Assembly (NCBI GenBank): GCA_016868315.1
Contig: VGHE01000005.1
Location: 124,001-188,000 of the forward strand
Direction: 5' to 3'
DNA length: 64,000 bases
DNA from: Betaproteobacteria bacterium
GTDB taxonomy: Bacteria > Bdellovibrionota_B > Oligoflexia > Silvanigrellales > Silvanigrellaceae
This document shows positions 5,323 through 46,773 of the stretch, piece after piece (the first letter of the stretch is position 1; the number at the start of each line of letters is the position of its first letter). The notes under the pieces were generated by a model that was not told where the DNA came from, did not search any database, and worked only from the letters and a program-made list of their open reading frames with translations. The position numbers and the translations under genes were made by a program.

Positions 5323-8313
5323 TCACCTTCGCACCGGTTCTCTGAAAAAGTAAACCAGCGTGCGCGCGGAGAGCTGCGGGCTTTGCATTTGCGAATTCAG
5401 GTTCAAGAGTCGAGCCAACGTTTCACTTTCAACAACCTTTTTGGTTTCAAGGTCGAAAAGCTGCGGAATCTCGCTCGGGAGAAAAGCCTCTAGACGCATC
5501 GGTAGCGCATCAAGACTCAATGCTTGTGGTCCCACTAAAAAGAACGGCGCATCCGCGGGCTCACTCACGCCTGAAGGTAAATTGAAACTCAGAGTGCCAC
5601 CCATCCAACTCGCCGCCGTGCCTGCAGGTACTCCGCCACTGCCCGGAGCGTCGTGGGATTGAAACCAACTCAGTTCAATGACTTGATCTCTCAGACCGCA
5701 CGGAAAAACCCGAATCACCCTTCCACGTGGAGAAGGTTCCTCAACAATAGGCTGACTCGATTTCAAGCCGAAATACGGCGTCGAGGTTGTCCATTCAAAC
5801 GACTGACAACCCGCAGCCCGCGGCAGAACGATCATACGAAAACGGCTCACTTGCTGCGGGAACGGATGAACTGAGGCAAACGCGGCGCTGCCCTCTGCAG
5901 ATGCCTCAGCGGATAATGGATTAACTGTCTGCGCGCTTGCTGGTGCCGAGGGACGCTTCTCGGAATCTGATTTCGGCGCTTTCTTTGCAGTTGAAAGCTC
6001 ATCAGCCACCGCTGCAACCTTTTGGCCTTCAACCGCAACCGCAGTTAACTCTGGATCGAGGCTTTCGCCGCGGAAGAGAGTGCGGTCAGCACTGTCTTTG
6101 CGTGTGAACTGAACACCCACGACCTGAGCCATGGTTGCAAGACCGTCGTCGAGCGTATGAGTTTTTCCATCGTTCAACTTCTTACCGACAAGCCCGGGAA
6201 TGGAAACATAGAACTGGCCGGTCTGGGATGTTGTATTTCTATCCTTACCCATCCCCGGCAAGAGTAAAGAGACGACCGTGCGATGATAGCTGCGACGAGC
6301 AACGAGATTTTCCAGCATCCAACCAAAAACCCGATCGAGCATCACAATGCGCGCATACTTCTCGGTTTGGCTAGGGGTGGCAAAAGTTTTGAACTTTCTA
6401 TTCTTGAAGACCTGCAGAAAATCTTTGAAAGAAGGGCGCACACTTGGATCATCATTCTGCAGGTAAACGTGCGCAAGAAATCGAACTTGAGCATTCTCTT
6501 TGCTCCAGCGCTGAAAGCTATCCACCAGTCGAGGCAAATAATGACTTTTCGCACTGACCACGGATAGCTCATTTGCACGCCAGTCCGGAACGGCATCACT
6601 TTTATTCTCGAGACCTGAGAGAAGCTTGGACATTTTCTCAAAGTCTTCATCTTCAACCGCAGCTGCTTTGGCATCGCGTTCGCTCTTGAAAATCGCATCC
6701 AAACCACTCGCAGGCTCATTCTGCTGATCGAGTTCCTTGCGGCGCGCAACAAATCGCCAATCGTTATTATCCAGCCAGCGCCCCGCAATCGATGGAATAT
6801 CCGAACCATACGAGAGTGCATCTGGAACAGCCAGGGCATGAGCGGGTGCAAAACTGACAACTTTATAACCGAAATTACGAAACTCTTGATACAGGTTGAA
6901 CACACCTGTTCTTGAAATCAAATCCTTTGTCAGAATCGGCAAATTCACTGGAATGTATTTTCCAAACTGCCGCACAATGGAATGCTGATACAGTTCAGAG
7001 CCACGATTGTAGTTGGGCAAACTCACTTTGAAGGACAAAGATTGATTCAAAAACGCATGTAAATGAGGAGCAAGCGCAGCAAGCACCGCTTCATCGCCCA
7101 CAACTGAATTAAGCAAAGGATCTAACTGCATAAAAAGTAAATTATAGCCGATAGCAACTGACTTTTGTCCGTCAACCGGAATGACCTGATTGAACTTCAC
7201 GGAAGCTGGATCAAGAAGATCCTCGGCGCCCCCGCTACTCGCAGCCTTACCTTTGCCATCTTTTCCTTTCACAGTCTCCGCGGCTTTGCTGCTCCCCTGC
7301 GCTGCCGGGGCACTATTCTGATTCGTTGCAGCGTTTACTGCAGCCACTCCCGTCTGCGCAGTTGAGGGTGCTTCAACGATTCCAGTGGCGGCAGAACCAG
7401 CATTGGCAGCAGCTACTTGCGCATCTTCAGTGGGCGTGGGCGCACCGGTTGTAGATTCTTCAACCCCTTGCTCTGGAGGCGCAGTCTCGGCTGTCTCGGT
7501 CGAATCCTCGTTTGCAGAACGCCACAACTCACTATCCGTGCCCAGCTGAACGGGTAGACGCCCGGATCTGTCCCACTGGGAAATCGACGCAGAGGTCAAA
7601 AGGATTTGTCCGGTTCCCAAACTGAGACGCAACATACTTGCTGCTGCATCATTCACAGGAATCGAAACGAATTGGGGTCGATGCACATCCGCATCCGTAA
7701 ACTGTCTTGCCCAACTGAACTGTCCCAACCAAGCTCGCACATTTGAGGGAGCCAAGGGTACAACTGAGAAAACAATATTGCGTTTGTTGCGCGCGACCGG
7801 AAGGTTGACCCGGATTTCATCGCCCGCAGACATGCTCACTCCCTCGATACACTGCGCACCCGAGGACGTAGGCAAAACAACGTAACTAATATCTTTGAAC
7901 TGCGTGTCCTCGCTCCCCATCCTGCGTCTGGTCGGCAGTGAAGGCCAAATCACCGGTGAACGCGCAGCAACTCCGGCTGGAGCTTCGGGCGAGAGGTACT
8001 GAATCCCGGGGTCAAGGAAAAAATCAAAAAGCGGAACGGTCAGGTAATCCATGCGCCGCATGACTAAACCCAACCTGCGCTGTTGCTCGGAGCGGGGAAA
8101 GCGTTTGAGTTTCTTGCGTTCTTGCTTGTCTTCCTCAAGCGAAGGCATCGGCCAATGACCAACAAAGGTTGAACTGCGAGCCAGTGAAAAATCAGCCAGG
8201 AAAATTGGCCAAGGATAGCGCGTCAAGAGCCACGCACCGCCTGCAACAACAACAACGCTGGCTGTGACCAGGGTCAATAGAAAATTGAGGTGTATTCCAG
8301 TGCGTCGGGTCAT
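5323..8313 (-). CDS. Large membrane-anchored protein, degenerate sulfatase/alkaline-phosphatase-like fold (inferred)
   Basis: A 996-residue protein with an N-terminal membrane anchor (about residues 10-30). A beta-rich segment is followed by an Ala/Thr/Glu/Pro low-complexity linker (about 290-390), a central domain (about 395-760), another linker and a C-terminal beta-rich domain. The central domain follows the order of sulfatase-fold proteins: an initial strand with Asp (YNLLFMQLD), a segment where the nucleophile would sit, a FxxFGYKVVSFAP strand, a VxxLDxxFGWMLENL helix, and a strand ending in LLLPGMGKD. The canonical Thr/Ser/Cys nucleophile and the DHG metal motif are not recognisable, so I infer an inactive fold. 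Its ATG directly follows the upstream TAA (8316/8313), implying coupling to the next gene. Confidence 0.5.
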   Translation of the reverse strand: MTRRTGIHLNFLLTLVTASVVVVAGGAWLLTRYPWPIFLADFSLARSSTFVGHWPMPSLEEDKQERKKLKRFPRSEQQRRLGLVMRRMDYLTVPLFDFFLDPGIQYLSPEAPAGVAARSPVIWPSLPTRRRMGSEDTQFKDISYVVLPTSSGAQCIEGVSMSAGDEIRVNLPVARNKRNIVFSVVPLAPSNVRAWLGQFSWARQFTDADVHRPQFVSIPVNDAAASMLRLSLGTGQILLTSASISQWDRSGRLPVQLGTDSELWRSANEDSTETAETAPPEQGVEESTTGAPTPTEDAQVAAANAGSAATGIVEAPSTAQTGVAAVNAATNQNSAPAAQGSSKAAETVKGKDGKGKAASSGGAEDLLDPASVKFNQVIPVDGQKSVAIGYNLLFMQLDPLLNSVVGDEAVLAALAPHLHAFLNQSLSFKVSLPNYNRGSELYQHSIVRQFGKYIPVNLPILTKDLISRTGVFNLYQEFRNFGYKVVSFAPAHALAVPDALSYGSDIPSIAGRWLDNNDWRFVARRKELDQQNEPASGLDAIFKSERDAKAAAVEDEDFEKMSKLLSGLENKSDAVPDWRANELSVVSAKSHYLPRLVDSFQRWSKENAQVRFLAHVYLQNDDPSVRPSFKDFLQVFKNRKFKTFATPSQTEKYARIVMLDRVFGWMLENLVARRSYHRTVVSLLLPGMGKDRNTTSQTGQFYVSIPGLVGKKLNDGKTHTLDDGLATMAQVVGVQFTRKDSADRTLFRGESLDPELTAVAVEGQKVAAVADELSTAKKAPKSDSEKRPSAPASAQTVNPLSAEASAEGSAAFASVHPFPQQVSRFRMIVLPRAAGCQSFEWTTSTPYFGLKSSQPIVEEPSPRGRVIRVFPCGLRDQVIELSWFQSHDAPGSGGVPAGTAASWMGGTLSFNLPSGVSEPADAPFFLVGPQALSLDALPMRLEAFLPSEIPQLFDLETKKVVESETLARLLNLNSQMQSPQLSARTLVYFFREPVRR

Positions 8314-10425
8314 TTAACGAATCCTCGCTCGCGCAGAGAGCTCGATGGCATGCAGAGCATCTGTCTGAAATTTAGAGAAGAAGAACTGACTCTCGCGCGC
8401 ATCGAGAGGGCGCCAGGACCACGAAGTAGCTTCGCGGGTTTCTGTTTGCTCGGGCACAAGATGCAGAACAACAAACTCTTCGAGAACCTCGGGATGAATT
8501 TTATAACTTTGCGCAGGGAGTGAAGTTGGCACGATCGAAACTACGCGATTCCGTGCAGAGCGATTAGATTCTCCAAGATTTTGCAGGGAGCCGCGGTTGA
8601 GTAACACAGCTCCGCCCTGCCTGAGCCCCTTCGAGGCTCCAGACCAACCATAGATTCCCTTGTATTTGAGGAGATAAACATCCTCAATAGATTGGCTCCA
8701 GGTTCGACATAGAAAACCCAAACCTAACTCACGCGACATCAGACTCGACATGCTTTTGCCAAGCACCGCGAGATCTGCGTCTGGCATTGAAGGCAAGGAA
8801 TTGAGCAATTGCCCCAGACTCCGTTCACGCAAATCGACGGGCTGGAATTTGAAGCCTGGGTCTGCAAAATCGACCTCCGTTTCGAAACAATGCAGTCGCT
8901 CTCCTGCTCCGACATTCGTTCCAACAGAAGTTGAATTTCCGACAGGCAACTTCGGAGAGCTCGGCTCCGCACCAACTTCATTCAAATGACGACCGATTTC
9001 ACGCGCGAAGTCTGAATGCAGAAAGCCAAGCTCAACTCCCGAAGACTGTCGCATGTTCTGAGCCAACTCGGAGCGCGAGGAGATGATCGCAAAACTCTGA
9101 GGATTGGTGCGCTGATCATCCGCGTAGGGCAAGATAATCCACGAGGCTGTGTCACGTGCACCAACGTCATGCAGATACTGAACAAGTTCGCGCACCAGGT
9201 TCTTGTTCACAATCCGCGATTCATAAGATGGCTGCGTCAACATCCAACCGACAGGTCGAAACGGAGCACGAACGCTTCTGAACTCCCTCTCCAGACCAGA
9301 CAGTTGAATGATGACCATCGCACTCTGGTTCTGCTTCATACCCGTCGCGAGTGCAGCGCTTTTTCTGAGGCGAGCAACGTCATCGGCAATTAGGTTGATC
9401 CAAGACAAACCGGAACTAGCAAACGGCACGCCATCAAAAACTCTGAACAGTCCAAAGAGGTGGAGTTGTGATAGCGCGAGGCGACGCTGTGCCTCCTGAA
9501 TCAATAGCGAATCGTTGAAATCTCCCAGATTCTCAGTTCCTCGACCGAGAAGCTGATTTCCAAACCGGATCTGCGGTGAAACGGAAACCAAAACCTGACT
9601 GTTTCCATCGATGATCACCCTTTTAGAACTCGACAAATTTTGCAGTGCCTTGCGTGCGACTTGTGGTGTTCGACCTGGCGTACTCTCGAGGAGAGTATCG
9701 AGCTGCTCTACGACAGATGATTTTGAAATGACGAATGGAACACGCACAGCATCGGCAAGCTTGGCTTGTTCAGCAGCAAACTCTTCACTTTCCAATTGGT
9801 CGGCAGGAACGAGAATGATGTGCATCTGTTTGGAGGAGTTCGTTGCAGCATCATTAGCTGCTGCTGGTTCAGCCTTTGAATTGGTTGGAGCAGGTATTGC
9901 ATGAGTCCGGCGTGTCAGCGAAGTCAATACAAAATGACCTCCCGCAAGAAGTTCAGAAACACGACTCCCCTCCTTCAGCCAGGGTCGTGTTAACTGGGGC
10001 GCCGAGATAACGTTGAGCGAAAAAACAGCGACGTGCGAGAAAACAAGCACGGCCGCGGGCAGGTACTTGATAATTTGAACTCTGATAAAATTTCCGCGAC
10101 GCGATGATCGTAGCAACTGAAAATCAAGGTACTGGCGGCTCAACAAAAGAAGAACAGATGCCGGAAGCGAAATGAGAACTCCCATCAGACCACTCAGTCC
10201 GACAAGCATCAGAGTTGTCCAAAACAGACGCCATTCCGAGAATAGGCCGCGGAATAATCTCAAATCCAGGGAGTCGGTGATCTTGCCATCAGCAACGAAA
10301 AGAACGAAGACAAGCGAAACGCCAATCCAGATGGCCACGGACAGGGAGACAAACCGTGAGACCTGCTCAAAAAAAGCCAACACACCGCCACCCGGTGTAT
10401 ATTTTGAGCGCGTCCTGTAAACCAT
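8314..10425 (-). CDS. Multi-pass membrane protein with degenerate sulfatase-like periplasmic domain (inferred)
   Basis: The start chosen is the ATG at 10425, preceded by AGGGGA; upstream in-frame codons lie inside hutH. This gives 703 residues. Three hydrophobic segments (about 27-45, 68-97 and 120-140) are followed by a large soluble region. That region opens with a strand MHIILVPADQ and later has LVRELVQYLHDVGA followed by a strand ASWIILPYADDQ, which sits where sulfatases have the helix and VVxTSDHG strand. The layout resembles membrane-bound LtaS/EptA-type proteins, but the metal and nucleophile residues are absent. It is the first gene of a two-gene unit with the 996-residue protein. Function unknown. 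Confidence 0.5.
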   Translation of the reverse strand: MVYRTRSKYTPGGGVLAFFEQVSRFVSLSVAIWIGVSLVFVLFVADGKITDSLDLRLFRGLFSEWRLFWTTLMLVGLSGLMGVLISLPASVLLLLSRQYLDFQLLRSSRRGNFIRVQIIKYLPAAVLVFSHVAVFSLNVISAPQLTRPWLKEGSRVSELLAGGHFVLTSLTRRTHAIPAPTNSKAEPAAANDAATNSSKQMHIILVPADQLESEEFAAEQAKLADAVRVPFVISKSSVVEQLDTLLESTPGRTPQVARKALQNLSSSKRVIIDGNSQVLVSVSPQIRFGNQLLGRGTENLGDFNDSLLIQEAQRRLALSQLHLFGLFRVFDGVPFASSGLSWINLIADDVARLRKSAALATGMKQNQSAMVIIQLSGLEREFRSVRAPFRPVGWMLTQPSYESRIVNKNLVRELVQYLHDVGARDTASWIILPYADDQRTNPQSFAIISSRSELAQNMRQSSGVELGFLHSDFAREIGRHLNEVGAEPSSPKLPVGNSTSVGTNVGAGERLHCFETEVDFADPGFKFQPVDLRERSLGQLLNSLPSMPDADLAVLGKSMSSLMSRELGLGFLCRTWSQSIEDVYLLKYKGIYGWSGASKGLRQGGAVLLNRGSLQNLGESNRSARNRVVSIVPTSLPAQSYKIHPEVLEEFVVLHLVPEQTETREATSWSWRPLDARESQFFFSKFQTDALHAIELSARARIR

Positions 10426-10493
10426 TGTCGTTCCCCTGCAGGCTGTTGGAAATATACTAGCGATGGCAGGAAGAAACTTCAAAGAGGTAGGCC

Positions 10494-12059
10494 ATGTCAG
10501 GAAAAGACAAAACTGTAGCGGTTGACTCCCAGCCCGTGGTGCTCGATGGGTGCGCGCTGAATATCGCACAAATCGTGCAAATCGCCCGACATTCCCGGCG
10601 GGTTGAACTTTCCCCCGATGCGCTGCGGAAAGTGCACGCTGCAAGGGCATGTGTGGAATCACGGGTGCAGAGCGGTGAAACTTTTTATGGCATCAATACA
10701 GGGTTCGGTGCTCTAGCCAACATCAAAATACCCAGCGATCATCTTCGGGAATTGCAAGTCAATCTCATCCGCTCACACGCCTGCGGCGTCGGACCTCGGC
10801 TTGAAACTGAGGTGGTGAGAGCCATTATGGCTCTCCGACTTCAAACCATGCTCCGTGGCAACTCTGGAGTGCGTGAAGAGACGCTCCGGCAAATGGAGTT
10901 TTTCCTCAACAACAACATCCATCCTGTAATCCCAAGCCAAGGCTCGGTCGGTGCATGTGGTGACCTTGCACCTCTCGCGCATCTCGCTCTGGCGCTGATT
11001 GGCGAAGGTCAAGTCGAGTGGGAAGGCCAAACCCGCAAGACAGCGGAAGTGCTCGCCCAGCTCAAGCGCCCCGCGCTGAGCCCCGAAGCTAAGGAAGGCC
11101 TTTCTCTCATCAACGGAACTCAAGTTATGACCGCTGTTGGGGTACTTGCTCTTGCCACGGCTGCACATCTTCTCTGCACGGCAGACATCACGCTTGCCAT
11201 GTCGCTCGATGCAACCAAGGGAACGGCAACCGCATTTCGGGAAGAAATACAAAACGTGCGACCTCACAGCGGTCAACAGCGCGCTGCTGCCAATATGAGA
11301 AAAGTTCTTGCCGACGACGGCCTCCGCCTGAGTCATGCCGGATGTAAAAAGGTTCAAGACCCCTATTCCTTCCGATGCGCTCCTCAAGTTCATGGAGCGG
11401 CGCGTAACGCTTACGCTCATGTGCTCGAAACACTGCTCGTCGAGACCAATTCAAGCACCGACAACCCGCTGGTTTTTCCTGAAAGCAATGAAATCCTCAG
11501 CGGTGGCAATTTCCACGGCGAGCCGGTTGCCATGGTGCTCGACTATCTCGCAATTGCAATGGCTGAAGTGGCGAGCATTTCCGAGCGTCGCATCGACAAG
11601 CTCGTGAACCCACATATGAGCGGGCTTCCGCCTTTCCTTATGAAAGAGTCCGGTTTGAACTCGGGCTTCATGATTCCACATGTCGTCGCAGCTGCGCTTG
11701 TCAGTGAAAACAAAGTGCACTGCCACCCAGCATCGGTGGACACCATTCCCACGTCAGCCGAGCAAGAAGACCATGTCAGTATGGGCATGACCTCAGCTCT
11801 CAAAATGCAGAGAGTCCTGAACAACACAGCGCGTGTTCTAGCCATCGAATCGTTGGCTGCAGCGCAGGGGCTCGAGTTTCATAAACCACTCCAAGGTGGT
11901 TTGGGGGTGCGAGCCGCCTATGATTTCGTAAGGCAATGTTCTGAAAAGCTCGACCAAGATCGCGCACTGGCCGACGACATCGAGCTCATGGCTGAAGCCA
12001 TTTTCACGGGAACATTCCGGCGACACGTTGAAGCAGTGGTTGGGGAATTAGACGTTTGA
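10494..12059 (+). CDS. hutH: Histidine ammonia-lyase (HutH), Cys variant of the MIO triad
   Basis: A 521-residue aromatic amino-acid ammonia-lyase, the usual length for HutH, which deaminates L-histidine to urocanate in the cytoplasm. Family motifs include YGINTGFG near the N-terminus, the substrate-selectivity pair Ser94-His95 (RSHACGVG), which in this family marks histidine rather than Tyr/Phe specificity, and GSVGACGDLAPLAH. The cofactor triad reads Ala154-Cys155-Gly156 instead of the usual Ala-Ser-Gly. STDNP and QEDHVSMG are also present. A good ribosome-binding site (AAAGAGG) precedes the ATG. No hutU, hutI or hutG is nearby. The stop overlaps the TTG start of the next gene (TTGA). Confidence 0.93.
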   Translation: MSGKDKTVAVDSQPVVLDGCALNIAQIVQIARHSRRVELSPDALRKVHAARACVESRVQSGETFYGINTGFGALANIKIPSDHLRELQVNLIRSHACGVGPRLETEVVRAIMALRLQTMLRGNSGVREETLRQMEFFLNNNIHPVIPSQGSVGACGDLAPLAHLALALIGEGQVEWEGQTRKTAEVLAQLKRPALSPEAKEGLSLINGTQVMTAVGVLALATAAHLLCTADITLAMSLDATKGTATAFREEIQNVRPHSGQQRAAANMRKVLADDGLRLSHAGCKKVQDPYSFRCAPQVHGAARNAYAHVLETLLVETNSSTDNPLVFPESNEILSGGNFHGEPVAMVLDYLAIAMAEVASISERRIDKLVNPHMSGLPPFLMKESGLNSGFMIPHVVAAALVSENKVHCHPASVDTIPTSAEQEDHVSMGMTSALKMQRVLNNTARVLAIESLAAAQGLEFHKPLQGGLGVRAAYDFVRQCSEKLDQDRALADDIELMAEAIFTGTFRRHVEAVVGELDV

Positions 12060-38610: not shown

Positions 38611-39735
38611 TCAGAACTGGTATGTGGCTTGAATCTCGAACTTTCCGCGCACAAGCGGAGCGGATGGAATCTTAGGGTTTTCCCCGTTGGCAGGAACCTT
38701 GGATTCAATTTTGGCTCGACTCGAGCCGACCTCGAGACCCAGACCTCCGAGCAAACCGTACCGACCTGCCTTTTCTTCGGGCGAAACGTAAGATGCCAGC
38801 GCCATGACCTGCAACGCAAAACGCTTTTCGACCCAGCTGTACTGGGTCTCTTGGGCGTCTTTGATGATGAGGTCAGCATGCTCATAAGCAGGAGTCAGGC
38901 GAAGATAGCCGCGCAGAGGCGCCTCGATCTCTAAGTCAGAAGGTTTCCAATTGATGATTTCCAAATCAGCCGGGAGAAGAAGCCTGAGGGAGGGATGCGC
39001 GCGAGAAAAGTCTGCGAATTCACTGATGACAGAACGAACGCGTTTTGTGTCGTTGCGGTCGAAGGGCTTGTCAGCTCCACCATCCGTGGTGATTTGCGCC
39101 GAGTGAATCTCGAAGACCATACCCTGGGTGTAGGCCGGGTAGATAGCCTCTGCATAAGCCGTGCGCAAAGTGAGGCCTGTGCGGCTAATCTTGGCGTCGT
39201 CTGAGTTCTTGTAGCTGTATGAACGAAAACCAAGCCCCGCATTGAATGATGACTGACGCTCCGCACGGCGGAGCAACTGATATGCAGCCCCAAAGTCAAC
39301 GTATGTCCAGGCGCCCGACTCAAGAAAATGCTGCCCCAGGGTGGTGACTCCAAGAGTCCGGAACGCGTCCCCACCCACAGCCAGTCCGCGGGTCAGCCCC
39401 AACATACAAGAAGACACCATTGAGCAAGAAAGCTCGGCTTCTTGGGGTAAAACGGCTGGATGAAGCCTGTTTTCGAGGAGCGAGGACGCAGGAACAGCGC
39501 GCAGAGGACTAGACAGAGTGGAAAGCGATGCGCTTCCCGAAGCTGAGCTTTGTGGCACTGGGGACGATGCTGGCGCAGCAGCTGGTGCAGGAGCTGGCGA
39601 AGCAGTCTGCGCCCACGCAGGACGAATGACTCCTCCCAGCCCAAATCCAACTGTGCCGGAAATAAAAAATACCGAGCTAGCTGCTGCAACGGAATTCACC
39701 AGATTTGCTTTGCGGCGGTTGGTCATCATCCCCAT
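38611..39735 (-). CDS. Exported protein, probably outer-membrane beta-barrel; unknown function
   Basis: 374 residues from the ATG at 39735 (AAGGGAG upstream). The N-terminus has a signal peptide with likely cleavage after AWA (about residue 42), then an Ala/Pro/Ser-rich linker of about 45 residues. The mature part alternates hydrophobic and polar residues and ends with an aromatic strand (KFEIQATYQF), a C-terminal Phe typical of BAM-inserted barrels. No homologous family recognised. It is divergent from the methionine S-methyltransferase gene and reads toward rplK. Confidence 0.6.
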   Translation of the reverse strand: MGMMTNRRKANLVNSVAAASSVFFISGTVGFGLGGVIRPAWAQTASPAPAPAAAPASSPVPQSSASGSASLSTLSSPLRAVPASSLLENRLHPAVLPQEAELSCSMVSSCMLGLTRGLAVGGDAFRTLGVTTLGQHFLESGAWTYVDFGAAYQLLRRAERQSSFNAGLGFRSYSYKNSDDAKISRTGLTLRTAYAEAIYPAYTQGMVFEIHSAQITTDGGADKPFDRNDTKRVRSVISEFADFSRAHPSLRLLLPADLEIINWKPSDLEIEAPLRGYLRLTPAYEHADLIIKDAQETQYSWVEKRFALQVMALASYVSPEEKAGRYGLLGGLGLEVGSSRAKIESKVPANGENPKIPSAPLVRGKFEIQATYQF

Positions 39736-39926
39736 GACGGCTCCCTTTTGAATCAATTTCTTGTGGCCGCCATACTGTGGGCAGGACGTCGATTTTGCAA
39801 CTTCCCTGCCATGTTGTGTATTGAAGACATCTGAAGCACACCACCCCGTGGGCATCGCTTCACCCTCTGGCACTGCGCAACACATCAGCGTGATCGAGCA
39901 CTTTGAGAAAATGGGGAGCGAGCTAC

Positions 39927-42900
39927 ATGACACTCATCAGCCCAGAAGAATTTTTGGAACGTTGTACGGAATCGAGTCAGACAACATACGACCTTCTGAA
40001 AAAGCTACTCGACGAGGCACTCACACCCGAAGGCCGCGCAGAGACTCGACGGTTTCTGACACGCTTACGCAAAGCGTGCGATGAATCCGAGCTGAACGAT
40101 GATGAGTTCCTCGCTCAGCACCACTTCACATTCAATACGCTTGCACTCGATAACGGCAGTGGTGGTGAAAATGCGCTTTGCCTGTTGCAGCTGCCCAGTA
40201 TCTTTACTCCAGAAGACTGGTCTTTCACCTTCTTTGAAGGTTTGGCGCGTTACCCCGCATCAGAATTTCAAGGACGCGTTGTTGCCGAGCTTGGGTGCGG
40301 CAACGGTTGGATTTCGATCGCCCTCGCTGCGAAGGCCTCCCCGCAGAAAATTCTTGGGCTTGATATCAACCCGCGCGCCATCACATGCGCACGTTTGAAC
40401 CTGCTTCTCAATGCACTCGACGACTCCGGCACACCAAAAATCGACCATGAGGGAAAAAGCCTTCTTGATCGCGTCGAATTTCACGTCTCTGACCTGCTGA
40501 GTTACCCAATCGAAAAACGTATTTCTCTCGACCGCGTGATTGGTTGCATTCCACAAGTTCTGAGTCCAGAGCCTCTCGTCGCTGCACAGTTCGTTTCCGA
40601 AGATGCCGACGATAATTTCCTTTATTCTCTGAGCAACTATTGCGAGAAACAAGGGTACGTCGAAGACCAGTTCGGACTTGGTTTAATTGCTCGTGCTCTT
40701 GAGGAGTCCATTGCTATTAGCAAACCTGCAGCGAAAGTGATTCTAAACCTGGGTGGGCGCCCTGGGACGGCAGTCCTTGAAAGATTGCTCTCGCGGCGTG
40801 GATTTTCGGTCAAGAAAATTTGGAGCACGAAGGTCTGGCAAGCTGCAGACACAGACATCTTGCCACTCGTGGAAATTGAAAACATAACACCACACCGCTT
40901 TGAGTTCTTCACAAGCCTGACCAGTGATGAACCAATCTGCGCACGCACAGCGTTGGAATATCAAAAGAGGGGCGGGCAGATTGCTCACAGCTTAAGTGTC
41001 TACGAAGCTCAAATTAAATATCCGTCCGCAGTCCGTTCGATCTTCAAACTCATCGGCCAGACCGGATTCGAAGATTCACGCAACGGCCTGGATCTTGCGT
41101 TCGCAAACGACGAACTTGCCGAAGAGAAAATCAACTTCATTGGTGGCCTTGCCGAATGGCTGCAGCAGAAACCAAATTTGCCCTATTCGGATGCTGAGGG
41201 CGAACCGCAGTTGCGTCGGCAAATTGCACAATTTCTGCGGAGCTACTGGAAAATCCCACTGACGGCTAAGAGTGTGTTCGTCACACCCAACCGTAAGGCT
41301 GCACTCAAAAATCACATCCAAATGTTGCGTCCGAGACTCACGCTGATTCAAAAAGATCTTACCCAACACATTCCCCCTCACTGGCTCAATGCATCGAGCC
41401 GAGGCGCGAACACAACTCCAGGAATCGTGGAGGCTCCCAAACGAGTCGACGAGATCTGCAAGTTGGTTCTTTCTCTTGAGCCGCAGCTGGTTATCTGTTC
41501 GCTGCAGGATTTCGAGGTTCGCACGAGTGATGCTTTTGTCAGGCTGGTGGAGACCTGTACGCGCGTCAATGCGCAGTTGATTGTCGACCTCTCCGACCAC
41601 TTCGAATTGTCGAGCCAGCCTGCACCACACGGAGTGCTCTCTTGGCTCTCCGAACATCCTTTGCCCGGACAGGTCACGTTGCTTTTTGCGCTTGTGCGCA
41701 ACCGCGTTTACAGCGATCTGGAACTGAGTTTCCTCATCACGGAAAATCTCGATTTACTTGAACGCATGACAGCCGCAGCGGAGCTGACTTATAGCCGAAC
41801 TCCGCTTCTGACACAGCGCTATTTCGGAAAGATATTTGCGGATCTTTTGAATTTTCAGCTCACCGACCTGCGCCGTTCCAAGAGCGAGCAGCTGCGCCTT
41901 CCACGCAACCCTGAAGCAACGAAAATGCTCCCCCTCCCGGAAAATATCGTTGAGGCTTTCCAGCACCCCGCAATCGCAGTGCACAGTCTCGAACTCAGCC
42001 CTCAGCATGTCAGATTGGATTATGGTGAAAACTGCCTTGCCTCACCGCTGCAACTCGATAGTGCGATCATGGAAAGTTATCTGCGTCAGAACATTTCGGC
42101 GCATGAATTAAATTGTGAAAAACCCGTGATCGAAATGGTCGAGAAACGTTTTGGACTAAATCATTTTACAGAGAGAAACGTGGTTCTTGGGCTTGGTGTA
42201 GCCCCCCTCTTTTGCGCAGCTCTCGAAATGATTGCGTCGCGGGGCGAGACGATTGCATTGCCCACAGGGGCATATGGTTATTTCCGAGCAGCATGCGATT
42301 ACGTTGGTGTGCCCTGCGCAATGGTTCAAACGAGTGATAAAAATAGGTTCAAAATAACCACGAATGAACTCGATCAGTTCCTCTCCGAGAAACGCTGCCA
42401 GTGGCTTTACTTGAATGGCCCGATTGTTAATCCGACCGGTGTCATATACTCCAATGGAGAAATTCTAGATTTGCTTGACGTCCTCGAGCGGCATAAATGT
42501 GGACTGATCTTCGACACCATCTTTTCAGGCCTCGAATTCAACGGAAAACATACGCATCTTAGCCTCAGCCGCTTCCGCCAGGCACGTTCCGAACAACCGC
42601 CTGCATCCAAAATGATTGTTCTGGGTGGGCTGTCCAAGGAACTCGCTGCAGGGGGGCTACGCTTGGGCTGGGCTGTTACCGAAGACGACGAACTTGCACA
42701 AAACCTGAGAGCTCGCGTCACCGGAACCCCACACGCCACAGTGCGATATGCAGCACGGAAAATTTACTTGGCTCTCAACGACGCGAATCATTCCGTCCAA
42801 AAGGAACTTGAGCAGCAAAAAGCCACACTCCGCAGCAGAGCTGAGAAACTCACCACTGCTCTGACTGAATTGGGCTGGGACGTTATTGAACCAGAAGGGG

Positions 42901-43157
42901 GATTGTTCGTCTGTGCCTCACCTCAAAAGTACCTCGAAGGTTTGGGGCGCGATGTTCCCGAGAGCCAACTCCGCACGGCAGCCGACGATATCGCAACACA
43001 ATTACGCATCCAGACGGGACTGCTGGTTAACAGCGCCACGTGGACGGGGCTGCCGCACCAGTTGCGTTTTGTCATCAGTGTGGAAGAAGAAACCTTGGAG
43101 TCCGGAATTGAGCGACTGAAACAATTCGACTCAAATTGGCAAAACCAAGGTCGATAA
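39927..43157 (+). CDS. Methionine S-methyltransferase, plant-type two-domain enzyme (MMT)
   Basis: 1076 residues from the ATG at 39927 (GGGGAG upstream); the plant enzymes are of nearly the same length. MMT transfers a methyl group from SAM to methionine to make S-methylmethionine. The N-terminal half has PSIFTPEDWSFTFFEGL, the SAM motif ELGCGNG (from about residue 121), LGLDINPRA and GCIPQVL, then SLSNYC and VEDQFGLGLIARA, all nearly identical to plant MMT as I remember it. The C-terminal half is aminotransferase-like, with NPTG (Asn835), IFDTIF (Asp863) and SKELAAGGLRLGW (Lys904, Arg912). Followed after 39 bases by a P-loop kinase gene. A SAM-linked methyl or sulfur storage role is inference. 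Confidence 0.9.
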   Translation: MTLISPEEFLERCTESSQTTYDLLKKLLDEALTPEGRAETRRFLTRLRKACDESELNDDEFLAQHHFTFNTLALDNGSGGENALCLLQLPSIFTPEDWSFTFFEGLARYPASEFQGRVVAELGCGNGWISIALAAKASPQKILGLDINPRAITCARLNLLLNALDDSGTPKIDHEGKSLLDRVEFHVSDLLSYPIEKRISLDRVIGCIPQVLSPEPLVAAQFVSEDADDNFLYSLSNYCEKQGYVEDQFGLGLIARALEESIAISKPAAKVILNLGGRPGTAVLERLLSRRGFSVKKIWSTKVWQAADTDILPLVEIENITPHRFEFFTSLTSDEPICARTALEYQKRGGQIAHSLSVYEAQIKYPSAVRSIFKLIGQTGFEDSRNGLDLAFANDELAEEKINFIGGLAEWLQQKPNLPYSDAEGEPQLRRQIAQFLRSYWKIPLTAKSVFVTPNRKAALKNHIQMLRPRLTLIQKDLTQHIPPHWLNASSRGANTTPGIVEAPKRVDEICKLVLSLEPQLVICSLQDFEVRTSDAFVRLVETCTRVNAQLIVDLSDHFELSSQPAPHGVLSWLSEHPLPGQVTLLFALVRNRVYSDLELSFLITENLDLLERMTAAAELTYSRTPLLTQRYFGKIFADLLNFQLTDLRRSKSEQLRLPRNPEATKMLPLPENIVEAFQHPAIAVHSLELSPQHVRLDYGENCLASPLQLDSAIMESYLRQNISAHELNCEKPVIEMVEKRFGLNHFTERNVVLGLGVAPLFCAALEMIASRGETIALPTGAYGYFRAACDYVGVPCAMVQTSDKNRFKITTNELDQFLSEKRCQWLYLNGPIVNPTGVIYSNGEILDLLDVLERHKCGLIFDTIFSGLEFNGKHTHLSLSRFRQARSEQPPASKMIVLGGLSKELAAGGLRLGWAVTEDDELAQNLRARVTGTPHATVRYAARKIYLALNDANHSVQKELEQQKATLRSRAEKLTTALTELGWDVIEPEGGLFVCASPQKYLEGLGRDVPESQLRTAADDIATQLRIQTGLLVNSATWTGLPHQLRFVISVEEETLESGIERLKQFDSNWQNQGR

Positions 43158-43196: not shown

Positions 43197-43862
43197 ATGC
43201 GTATTGCCATTTCGGGCCACAGCGGATGCGGAAACACCACGGCGACCACAAATGTCGGTCAGGCGTTAGGGTTGAAGATAGTGAATTACACTTTCCGCGA
43301 CCTCGCCAGAGAGCTCGAAATGAGCTTCGATGACCTTCACAAGCAGGCTCCAACAAATTTCATTTTTGATTATCTGACCGATCTGAAATGCATCCGCTCA
43401 GCATTGACGGAAAATATCGTGCTCGGCACGCGCCTTGCTGCCTGGCTCATGGATGCCGATCTGAGAATCTGGCTTCACGCGCCTCTCGAAGAAAGAGCGC
43501 GCCGCATCAACAAGCGCGAAACCGAAAAAGCTGCGACCTACGAATCGGTTCTCTACAAAACCCTGAAGCGAGATGAACAAAACCGAAAACGCTACTTGCA
43601 GCTTTATGGTCTAGATATTCACGACCACTCTGACTTCGACATTACCATCAATACCGACAAACTCACGGCAGAGCAGGTTTCGAGCTTGATTGTTGCTGCA
43701 GCGCAGTGGGCTAGCAAAAACCAACTCGAGCGCAAGAACATTCACATCAAGCGCATTCGTGAAATCATCGCCGACAAACTCAAAGTCTCTGAACAGCAAA
43801 TCCTTGACCCGAACCATCCTATCGATGTGAAGGAAATATACGCGCGTCTGAATAAAGTCTAA
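43197..43862 (+). CDS. Cytidylate kinase-like P-loop protein
   Basis: 221 residues. The N-terminal P-loop reads GHSGCGNTT, where the usual Walker-A lysine is Asn. It is followed by NYTFRDLARELEMSFDDL and an RLAAWL / DLRIWLHAPLEERARRI region, as in the cytidylate-kinase-like family (nucleoside monophosphate kinases of the archaeal CMP-kinase branch). A C-terminal extension of about 60 residues is rich in Lys/Ile helices (IKRIREIIADKLKVS). CMP/dCMP phosphorylation is likely from the family but the variant P-loop leaves activity open. It ends with a 4-base convergent overlap on the next minus-strand gene. Confidence 0.7.
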   Translation: MRIAISGHSGCGNTTATTNVGQALGLKIVNYTFRDLARELEMSFDDLHKQAPTNFIFDYLTDLKCIRSALTENIVLGTRLAAWLMDADLRIWLHAPLEERARRINKRETEKAATYESVLYKTLKRDEQNRKRYLQLYGLDIHDHSDFDITINTDKLTAEQVSSLIVAAAQWASKNQLERKNIHIKRIREIIADKLKVSEQQILDPNHPIDVKEIYARLNKV

Positions 43863-44794
43863 AGACGCTCAGACCAGCGCAAGCCAAAGCTAGTCTGCTG
43901 CAACTCAAGATCGACCGCATCGAGGACTTCACCTGTACTGGTGTACTCCGCCGCGATAGCATCTGCGTGTCGGGATTTGCTTTCCCAAGTGAATGACAGC
44001 TGATGCTTGTGGGGAGCATTGCCCCCTTGCGCATCTCGCCACTGCACACTCGAAAAATCAACACTGAATGCAGCGGAAATCATTTGACCGGTGACACTGC
44101 GGTCGGGCTGAAACTTCACCCGGTTCGCTGTTGCTGAGCGACTGACCGGAAAAGCATCGTGCTTGACAGCTGTTTTACCGAAGCCAAGCCACGCGTAGTC
44201 GGCACCAAGACCGAAGGACACAGCAGAATCAGCGACGGTGGTGTCCTGTTGAATCAGCGTACCAGCCCTCAGTGGAACCCCATAAAGAGCAAGCGTACCG
44301 CGAGGATAATGAATACGCTCATAGAGTGCCTCTGCAGAGCCCAACCAACGCAAACGGGTGTTTTCGGCCAAACTGAACTGTTTCTCAAGTCCAGCCTCAA
44401 AAGCAAGATCAAACCAAGAAACAGCTTGGAGGTCGTAACTTCTTCCAGCCGCAGGGAAGATGTTCTTCAACTTGAGCGAGTAAAACGATCGCGTGAACAG
44501 GCTCTCGGAGCTGAAATTGCGGTGCACTCCGAAGCGAAATGCGGTGAAGCGCAAGTTGTTCTCGTAGGAACCAAACCCTGGCGGACTATAAGGGAGCGTA
44601 ACGTGACCCATTCCCACCGCGACAGCAATTTCCGGATGCATGTTTCCATCAGAGGTGCCGTCACGCGGTTCCTCGGTATTAGACGACACCAACTCGAAAT
44701 CTTCTGTGGGCACAATCTCGGCCAAAGCTTTCTGAGGGGTCACAATTTGAACCAGAAGAGCTGCGAGAGCGCATTGAATAAAACCATAATTCAC
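43859..44794 (-). CDS. Exported protein, possible outer-membrane barrel; unknown function
   Basis: 311 residues from the GTG at 44794, which overlaps the upstream stop (GTGA) and gives a clean signal peptide ending in QKALA (about residue 25). An ATG further upstream would place the signal inside the protein. The mature region is rich in aromatic and Gly residues in alternating strands (FGLGADYAWLGFGK, HQLSFTWESKSRH, QQTSFGLRWSERL). A barrel in the outer membrane is inferred; no family recognised. Coupled to the OsmC-CinA gene. Confidence 0.55.
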   Translation of the reverse strand: MNYGFIQCALAALLVQIVTPQKALAEIVPTEDFELVSSNTEEPRDGTSDGNMHPEIAVAVGMGHVTLPYSPPGFGSYENNLRFTAFRFGVHRNFSSESLFTRSFYSLKLKNIFPAAGRSYDLQAVSWFDLAFEAGLEKQFSLAENTRLRWLGSAEALYERIHYPRGTLALYGVPLRAGTLIQQDTTVADSAVSFGLGADYAWLGFGKTAVKHDAFPVSRSATANRVKFQPDRSVTGQMISAAFSVDFSSVQWRDAQGGNAPHKHQLSFTWESKSRHADAIAAEYTSTGEVLDAVDLELQQTSFGLRWSERL

Positions 44795-46701
44795 GATTTG
44801 ACGCTCCCTAAGCTTTCGGCAACACCAACAAGTGTGCACAGCGCAAAGACGCTGGCGCGTTTTTGGATAAGTTCGCGTGGAAGATGTTTACCGAAACGCT
44901 TCTCAGCGCACAAAAGCACATCTGAAGATTGCGGCTGACCAGTGACACGCTCCCAGCCCTGAAGACTCAGAGATTCAAGCAGCGCAGAGCTCTGCAGACG
45001 CCCCCACAATCCTTCACTCAGTGAGACTGCAAAACAGACTGTGCCGACCGGTTTTTCTGCAGTTTCGCCACCAGGACCTGCAATGCCGGTCACCGACAGC
45101 GCCACGGCCGAATCAAAAACACGCCGCGCTCCCAGAGCCATCTCGGCTGCTGTGGCGTTGCTCACAGCACCGTGCTTGCGCAAGGTCTCATTCGAAACAC
45201 CCAACAAAGTGGCTTTGGACTGATTCGAATAGGCGACCACTCCACCCGAAAAGACTGCCGAGATTCCCGGAAAAGCAGTCAGCTCAGCTGCAATCCGACC
45301 ACCCGTGCACGATTCGGCGAGCGCGAGGCGCAGATCCGCTCGAGCGAAATATTCGTGCAGACGCTCGACCAGCGTTTGGGTTCCACGGTACAGCAGGCGC
45401 TGACCAAAAATTGCCTCAATGCGATTCACTTCAGAAGCAACATCGCATTCATCAGCCGCGGCTGTAGCCTCTTCGTTTGGAGCACTCTGTTCTGCTTTAA
45501 AACTATAAGAAACGTATCCAGCATGAGCCTGGTAGGACACATGCAGGTTCGGATACTTTCCGAGAAGGTCATGCTCAACAGCTGACAACTGAGTCTGCAG
45601 CGCTGATTCTCCTATGCCCCACACATGCCAAGGACCCCATTCACGGAACGTACGTTCCGCTGACCTGAGATGCTTTTTAACTTCCTGCAGGAACATCTGT
45701 TCACACTCCCATGGAACACCCGGAAGCGCGAAAAGTGTGCTGCTGTGCTCTGGATAAGATTTGGTAACAAAGAATCCTGCGGCGGTTCCAAAACCATTCG
45801 GTAAAATACCTGCCCCTGAAGGAAGCATCGCCTGCTTGCGGTTGCTCTCCGGAATTTCAGTTCGGCCGAGCAACTGAAATGCTCTCACACAGATATCCCA
45901 TGCCTCTTGAGAGAACTCGAGAGGAACCTTGAGAGTCTCGGCCACGACTTCAGCCGTGAGGTCATCCTGAGTTGGCCCAAGTCCACCCGTCATGAACACA
46001 AACTCGTGCACAGCCGCCAGTTCATTCAAGGTCTTGCCAAGCATCGTGCGATCATCGCCCACCATGCGAACTTCGTTGACCTGAATTCCCAGACGATTGA
46101 GTTCCTTGATAATGAAGCGCCCATTTGTGTCAGCAGTTTTACCCGCAAGAAGCTCATTTCCTGTCAGCAGAACAGCAGCGCGCAGCTGAGATTGGTTTGC
46201 ACGAACTGAAGATGAGTTATCCTTTTCGAGTTCCTCGAGAGCCCGAACAAACTCGACAGAGAGGTCATTCCCATTGAGGAGCAGACGGGGCTCAAACTCA
46301 CAACCGCTGCGCTTGATCATGGCGCTGACACCACAATAACGGGCATAGGAGAGAGCTGCTGCGCGCAAAACCCGATCGGATTCCAGACCCTCTCCGAAAA
46401 ACCTGTAGGTCAAAACACAATGCGAAAACACCCGCGGATGCTCATCGGTCACGGAAAATTCCGTGTCGATCAGAAGCTCCTGCAATGGTTGCCGCATTTT
46501 TTTTAGAATGGAGACAACATCCACGCCGGTGCAACCCGCCACGCCCATGGCGACGAGATCTTTGGGCGAGTGATGACGCTTGGGTACTCCGGGCGTCGAT
46601 GATGCACCCATCAGGGTGCGCAAGCCATCCGCAGAGATTCCCTCGAACTCAAGCTCGTTGGGCGGCTCATTTTTGAGCCATCGTACCGACATTTTAATCA
46701 T
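44791..46701 (-). CDS. Fusion of an OsmC-like domain to CinA
   Basis: 636 residues from the ATG at 46701 (GGAGG six bases upstream). Residues about 1-140 are OsmC/Ohr-like with both redox cysteines: Cys57 in AMGVAGCTGVDV and Cys123 in YARYCGVSAMI, suggesting peroxide reduction. From about 172 the protein is CinA: a molybdopterin-binding-type domain (LLTGNELLAGKTADTNG, TGGLGPTQDD) and a C-terminal nicotinamide-nucleotide amidase domain with catalytic ESCTGG (Ser464), FSGGVVAYSN and VTGIAGPGG. CinA hydrolyses NMN or cleans up pyridine nucleotides. The frame runs through both parts with no stop. I do not recall this fusion as a known architecture. Confidence 0.85.
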   Translation of the reverse strand: MIKMSVRWLKNEPPNELEFEGISADGLRTLMGASSTPGVPKRHHSPKDLVAMGVAGCTGVDVVSILKKMRQPLQELLIDTEFSVTDEHPRVFSHCVLTYRFFGEGLESDRVLRAAALSYARYCGVSAMIKRSGCEFEPRLLLNGNDLSVEFVRALEELEKDNSSSVRANQSQLRAAVLLTGNELLAGKTADTNGRFIIKELNRLGIQVNEVRMVGDDRTMLGKTLNELAAVHEFVFMTGGLGPTQDDLTAEVVAETLKVPLEFSQEAWDICVRAFQLLGRTEIPESNRKQAMLPSGAGILPNGFGTAAGFFVTKSYPEHSSTLFALPGVPWECEQMFLQEVKKHLRSAERTFREWGPWHVWGIGESALQTQLSAVEHDLLGKYPNLHVSYQAHAGYVSYSFKAEQSAPNEEATAAADECDVASEVNRIEAIFGQRLLYRGTQTLVERLHEYFARADLRLALAESCTGGRIAAELTAFPGISAVFSGGVVAYSNQSKATLLGVSNETLRKHGAVSNATAAEMALGARRVFDSAVALSVTGIAGPGGETAEKPVGTVCFAVSLSEGLWGRLQSSALLESLSLQGWERVTGQPQSSDVLLCAEKRFGKHLPRELIQKRASVFALCTLVGVAESLGSVKS

Positions 46702-46773
46702 GACAGTCCTCCGCTTGTGCCCGGGCACGTGTCCAACACTGCTCGGGATTTCCCACAGCGGGTTCCTGCAGAG

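Follow-up and report, generated by a model that had tools for sequence, protein, structure and literature searches.

The window, i.e. the whole stretch of 64,000 nucleotides that was analysed, carries at 39927-43157 a gene whose product is supported as a full-length plant-type (Group III) methionine S-methyltransferase (MMT). Very probably, this protein consists of an N-terminal domain that would make S-methylmethionine (SMM), a decayed middle domain and a C-terminal domain that may be expected to bind PLP. A plant-like MMT in Oligoflexia is already reported and this gene is a further example, since enzymes with the dual-domain structure of the plant protein, termed Group III, have been described in some Deltaproteobacteria and Oligoflexia, and the mechanism of these dual-domain enzymes has been argued to be a shared one (Peng et al. 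2022, PMC9135737, citing Williams et al. 2019). No function has been assigned in the literature to SMM in bacteria with a Group III MMT, and it was considered hard to predict (PMC9135737). The decayed middle aminotransferase fold, the invariant PLP residues of the C-terminal domain and the cyanobacterial members of the group go beyond the published accounts found. The invariant PLP residues, compared between bacteria and plants, offer a cheap and concrete test of the role of the large second half of the protein.

Gene integrity and N-terminal methyltransferase domain

The features of the locus are the following:
39913..39918 (+): ribosome-binding-site-like GGGGAG, read from the sequence, 8 nt 5' of the MMT ATG
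39927..43157 (+): Group III MMT gene, open reading frame starting with ATG, 1076 aa, stop included
39927..40931 (+): SAM-dependent Met S-methyltransferase domain, aa 1-335, with the motif ELGCGNGW
41052..41996 (+): degenerate fold-type I aminotransferase-like domain, about aa 376-690, from hhalign, AF2, Foldseek and alignment columns
41997..43154 (+): fold-type I PLP aminotransferase-like domain, aa 691-1076
43197..43862 (+): cytidylate-kinase-like gene, 39 nt after MMT

The open reading frame given in the first-pass annotation was exact, starting with ATG behind a good ribosome-binding site and remaining open over its 1076 codons, with no internal stops, in a host genome assembly of 3.24 Mb (27 contigs, 94.8% complete). 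The host most likely belongs to Silvanigrellaceae or a family near it, which places it in Oligoflexia under the older naming. Homologues in a 14-sequence alignment (A1) were 39-71% identical over the full length. The identification as a full-length plant-type MMT was borne out by the presence of both an N-terminal SAM methyltransferase and a C-terminal aminotransferase domain. All the peptides that had been quoted in its favour were located in the protein (PSIFTPEDWSFTFFEGL at 90-106, ELGCGNGWISIA at 121-132, SLSNYC at 234-239, VEDQFGLGLIARA at 245-257 and NPTG at 835-838), and the majority of these positions are invariant across the 14 bacterial homologues, which belong to two phyla, far above chance. 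The two-domain layout that had been proposed holds in that both domains were found, but it is understated, because structure prediction gives three parts. The view that such a protein is unusual for a bacterium was only partly right, considering the cases from Oligoflexia and Deltaproteobacteria in PMC9135737 and the presence of the gene in most of its own family.

A divergent open reading frame (38611-39933, minus strand) overlaps the MMT start in its longest form, which probably begins too far upstream. No promoters or terminators scored above shuffles at the MMT locus, and the dN/dS analysis of MMT was uninformative, with synonymous sites saturated.

In comparison with the Group III MMT of Peng et al. 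2022 (PMC9135737), the protein has the same length (1076 aa, within the about 1070-1090 aa of the group) and an identical architecture, with the N-terminal Met S-methyltransferase followed by the C-terminal aminotransferase. In MmtN of Groups I and II (PDB 7vvv-7vvx), the catalytic domain is homologous to the N-terminal domain described here and has identical SAM-site residues, but these enzymes are single-domain proteins of about 305 aa. BurB, found in some Burkholderia, likewise forms SMM from Met, but it is a SET-domain enzyme with an unrelated fold.

A search of the PDB has revealed that the best solved relative of the N-terminal domain is MmtN of Roseovarius indicus (7vvv, E=2.3e-12). The GxGxG motif for SAM corresponds to G123, G125 and G127, and the equivalents of Asp69, Ser101, Leu102 and Cys121 of MmtN are D146, S188, L190 and C207, which are invariant in all rows of the alignment. 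Met is bound in MmtN by Glu127, R132 and E250; of these, Glu127 is unmatched in the pairwise alignment, where it falls on S213 (A, S or N in the relatives), and the equivalent of E250 lies outside the pairwise alignment with 7vvv. Because the domain is homologous to MmtN and its SAM-site positions are invariant, formation of SMM is highly likely, as judged from homology to MmtN and MMT. In the proposed mechanism, SAM would be held in a Rossmann pocket with the Met thioether set beside its methyl group, and the products would be SMM and S-adenosylhomocysteine.

Middle and C-terminal aminotransferase-like domains

The middle domain matched no Pfam family and no sequence in the PDB (best E=0.2). 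When it was compared with the C-terminal domain by hhalign, an E value of 0.0022 with collinear residues was obtained, the control domain pairs giving 0.13-0.14. The domain modelled alone reached an AF2 pLDDT of 79.6, and every top Foldseek match was an enzyme with the PLP fold (best E=2.9e-11, prob 1.00, TMq about 0.53). In place of the PLP lysine, the aligned residue (591) is R, K, H or Y, and the phosphate-binding arginine (599) is replaced by E, Q or S, so that the domain is a decayed aminotransferase copy. It probably serves as a structural or dimerisation partner. As modelled, the whole protein is a methyltransferase followed by two aminotransferase folds, the first dead and the second apparently live.

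The C-terminal domain was recognised by Pfam (Aminotran_1_2, E=3.6e-39) and by PDB matches. Its AlphaFold2 model had a mean pLDDT of 85.7 and a pTM of 0.83, and the top Foldseek matches were solely fold-type I PLP enzymes (1gd9, E=7e-20, TMt 0.80). By pairwise alignment, K904 pairs with the Schiff-base lysine (SKELAAGGLRLG against SKSHAMTGWRLG) and R912 with the phosphate arginine; N835 matches the asparagine of NPTG (N835-G838) and D863 matches Asp222, and R1047 is the equivalent of the carboxylate arginine Arg386 (LRF against FRI). Inspection of the alignment columns revealed that K904, R912, N835, D863, Y783 and R1047 do not vary among the 14 bacterial proteins, which represent two phyla, and K904, R912, N835, D863 and R1047 are likewise kept in a fifteenth bacterial protein. 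The domain probably binds PLP, because the residues that hold PLP and the amino-acid carboxylate are retained. Fold-type I aminotransferases and ACC synthase (1gd9, 4my5, 6f77, 1m4n) have the same fold and the same PLP lysine, phosphate arginine, NPxG, aspartate and carboxylate arginine, but the domain described here is fused to a methyltransferase and has Phe at the Tyr225 position (F866, all 14 rows). The replacement of this PLP-contacting tyrosine could mean a weaker ordinary transamination. The nearest curated single family was GntC, with 96 bits, far below its cut-off of 415.

The substrate of this domain may be SMM or an amino acid related to it, with transamination or elimination as the reaction; alternatively, the domain may sense Met or SMM. 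Catalysis on SMM is a tentative prediction; transamination would lead to 4-dimethylsulfonio-2-oxobutyrate and elimination would release dimethyl sulfide. Rhodes and co-workers reportedly proposed in 1997 the transamination of SMM as a step of plant DMSP synthesis (cited in PMC11464771), so a fused PLP domain acting on SMM is chemically plausible. A wider proposal, speculative and rather unlikely as a whole, is that bacterial MMTs are bifunctional, the N-terminal domain making SMM and the PLP domain of the same chain consuming it, with the plant MMT as a descendant or relative with a dead second site. If true, bifunctionality would explain the absence of linked genes for SMM use.

It is quite possible, if short of probable, that the PLP-fold C-terminal half is non-catalytic in bacteria and has a structural or regulatory role, e.g. 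as a Met/SMM sensor or in dimerisation; the protein would then be an SMM synthase only, and general methyltransferases would recycle its product, as happens in the SMM cycle of plants. The clear degeneration of the middle domain is in line with this explanation, as are the Phe in place of the usual Tyr at position 866 and the faster divergence of the C-terminal domain, which is 61% identical among congeners against 79% for the N-terminal domain. The invariance of K904, R912, N835, D863 and R1047 across Silvanigrella-like bacteria, family f12 and cyanobacteria, despite an identity of the domain to the query of 35-61% across homologues, is unexpected for a dead site and speaks against this explanation. 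In the sequence which we take to be that of the Arabidopsis MMT, positions 904, 912 and 835 are presumably Leu, Lys and Ser; this absence of the lysine fits a non-catalytic half. If the database sequence confirms these residues, plants would have a dead second active site and bacteria an apparently live one, which is given here as a lead.

Gene neighbourhood and metabolic context

The MMT gene, which is chromosomal, adjoins the rplK-rplA-rplJ-rplL-rpoB region and is followed by the cytidylate-kinase-like gene (Pfam PF13189, E=1.1e-16). Contamination or recent insertion is very unlikely because the same rplK-rpoB/kinase arrangement was found in the congeners L004 and L006 (three separate genomes). 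The kinase-like gene is a neighbour conserved in the genus without an evident functional link to MMT. Genetic linkage was rejected as a guide to function because the MMT neighbours vary between genera. In genus g5 (L036 7094-12330, L035 and L037), an acetate-CoA ligase gene is located directly 3' of MMT on the same strand, with an overlap of 28 bp in L036 and L035 and a gap of 39 bp in L037. The 665-aa product of this MMT-overlapping gene was considered as a clue to function and discarded as an ordinary acetate-CoA ligase that scored above the curated cut-off. In family f12, an arylformamidase gene and an unrelated methyltransferase gene adjoin MMT; in L038 (G046), the arylformamidase gene (5919-6575, minus strand, TIGR03035 above cut-off) follows MMT on the same strand after a spacing of 52 nt.

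Among the neighbours of MMT, in the window as well as in the relatives examined, no DMSP, NRPS or amine-oxidase gene was recognised, which agrees with the absence of linkage described for Group III MMT (PMC9135737) and differs from the Group I mmtN genes, linked to DMSP or NRPS genes. The possibility that MMT is here the first enzyme of DMSP synthesis by the methylation route is improbable. That route has SMM as its first intermediate, and the Group III bacterium Pseudobacteriovorax antillogorgiicola produced DMSP, but the other three of the four Group III strains tested were without it (PMC9135737), so that the DMSP-type chemistry suggested in the first-pass annotation finds no support in gene context and a precedent in one of four bacteria. 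Generic decarboxylases of the ornithine/arginine type were also considered as a clue to DMSP; they occur throughout the class and are therefore uninformative.

The host genome contains MetH and an adjacent HMT-MTHFR fusion, and no dedicated SMM-using homocysteine S-methyltransferase of a plant-type SMM cycle was found besides them. The fusion may use SMM, and a general enzyme of this kind next to metH throughout the class would suit a protein that is an SMM synthase only; against this, the MetH and HMT-MTHFR genes are present in the class with or without MMT rather than in MMT carriers only, and MetH alone was found in the three cyanobacteria tested.

Other genes were observed in the window. 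A 645-aa open reading frame (44791-46728, minus strand) fuses an OsmC-like domain to CinA (MoCF_biosynth and CinA); at this site the congeners L004 and L006 have reading frames of comparable length (627 and 646 aa) and with a similar start, and a 470-aa reading frame in L034 begins directly as CinA-like. An aromatic amino acid lyase of the HAL/PAL type is encoded at 10494-12059 (plus strand, Pfam E=2e-191), and two large adjacent reading frames of 996 and 782 aa, neither of them matched by Pfam, are located at 5323-10662 (minus strand).

Distribution among bacteria and relationship to plant MMT

The search of the class covered 58 genomes, and its repetition at phylum level gave the identical 58. 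Full-length MMT was present, without stops and with 42-71% protein identity, in 11 of the 14 genomes of the own family, and two of the three genomes without it are just 72% and 83% complete. Family f12, of the same class, had MMT in 2 of its 7 genomes, and it was not found in the remaining 37 genomes of the class. Outside the class, MMT was found in Xenococcus sp. PCC 7305, a Xenococcus MAG, a Xenococcaceae MAG and one more member of that family, i.e. in 4 of the 27 family genomes of these Xenococcaceae-type cyanobacteria; a single seed genome carried it among 390 sampled cyanobacteria. Viral contigs contained no MMT homologue and plasmids no MMT copy. No mention of a cyanobacterial MMT was found in the MMT literature examined.

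The identity of RpoB between the host genome and genus g5 was 80%, with 66-67% for f12 and about 57% for the cyanobacteria (over 600 aa only), and the corresponding MMT identities were 42-45%, 40-43% and 39-41%. In the MMT tree, the own family did not form a group separate from f12 and the cyanobacteria; rejection of the own-family grouping was borderline (p-AU 0.0498), with long branches involved. A transfer of MMT among bacteria is possible from these comparisons. For the plant gene, an ancestral or a transferred origin, as suggested in the first-pass annotation, would both be conceivable.

The protein which we take to be the Arabidopsis MMT aligns over the full length with 38% identity overall (53, 35 and 28% by domain), has a tentative place in the tree (support 42-62) and is presumably no closer than the cyanobacterial MMTs. 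The conserved site between the rplK-rpoB region and the kinase gene, shared by three genomes of the genus, and the divergent copies carried by most genomes of the family largely refute a recently acquired plant or algal gene or a contaminating contig, and the presumed distance of the Arabidopsis protein, as a lead, points the same way. This most improbable origin had in its favour the long stretches of peptide identity to plant MMT noted in the first pass. The cyanobacterial MMTs (L005, L007, L008 and L040) are full-length Group III proteins, and their genes lie in differing neighbourhoods.
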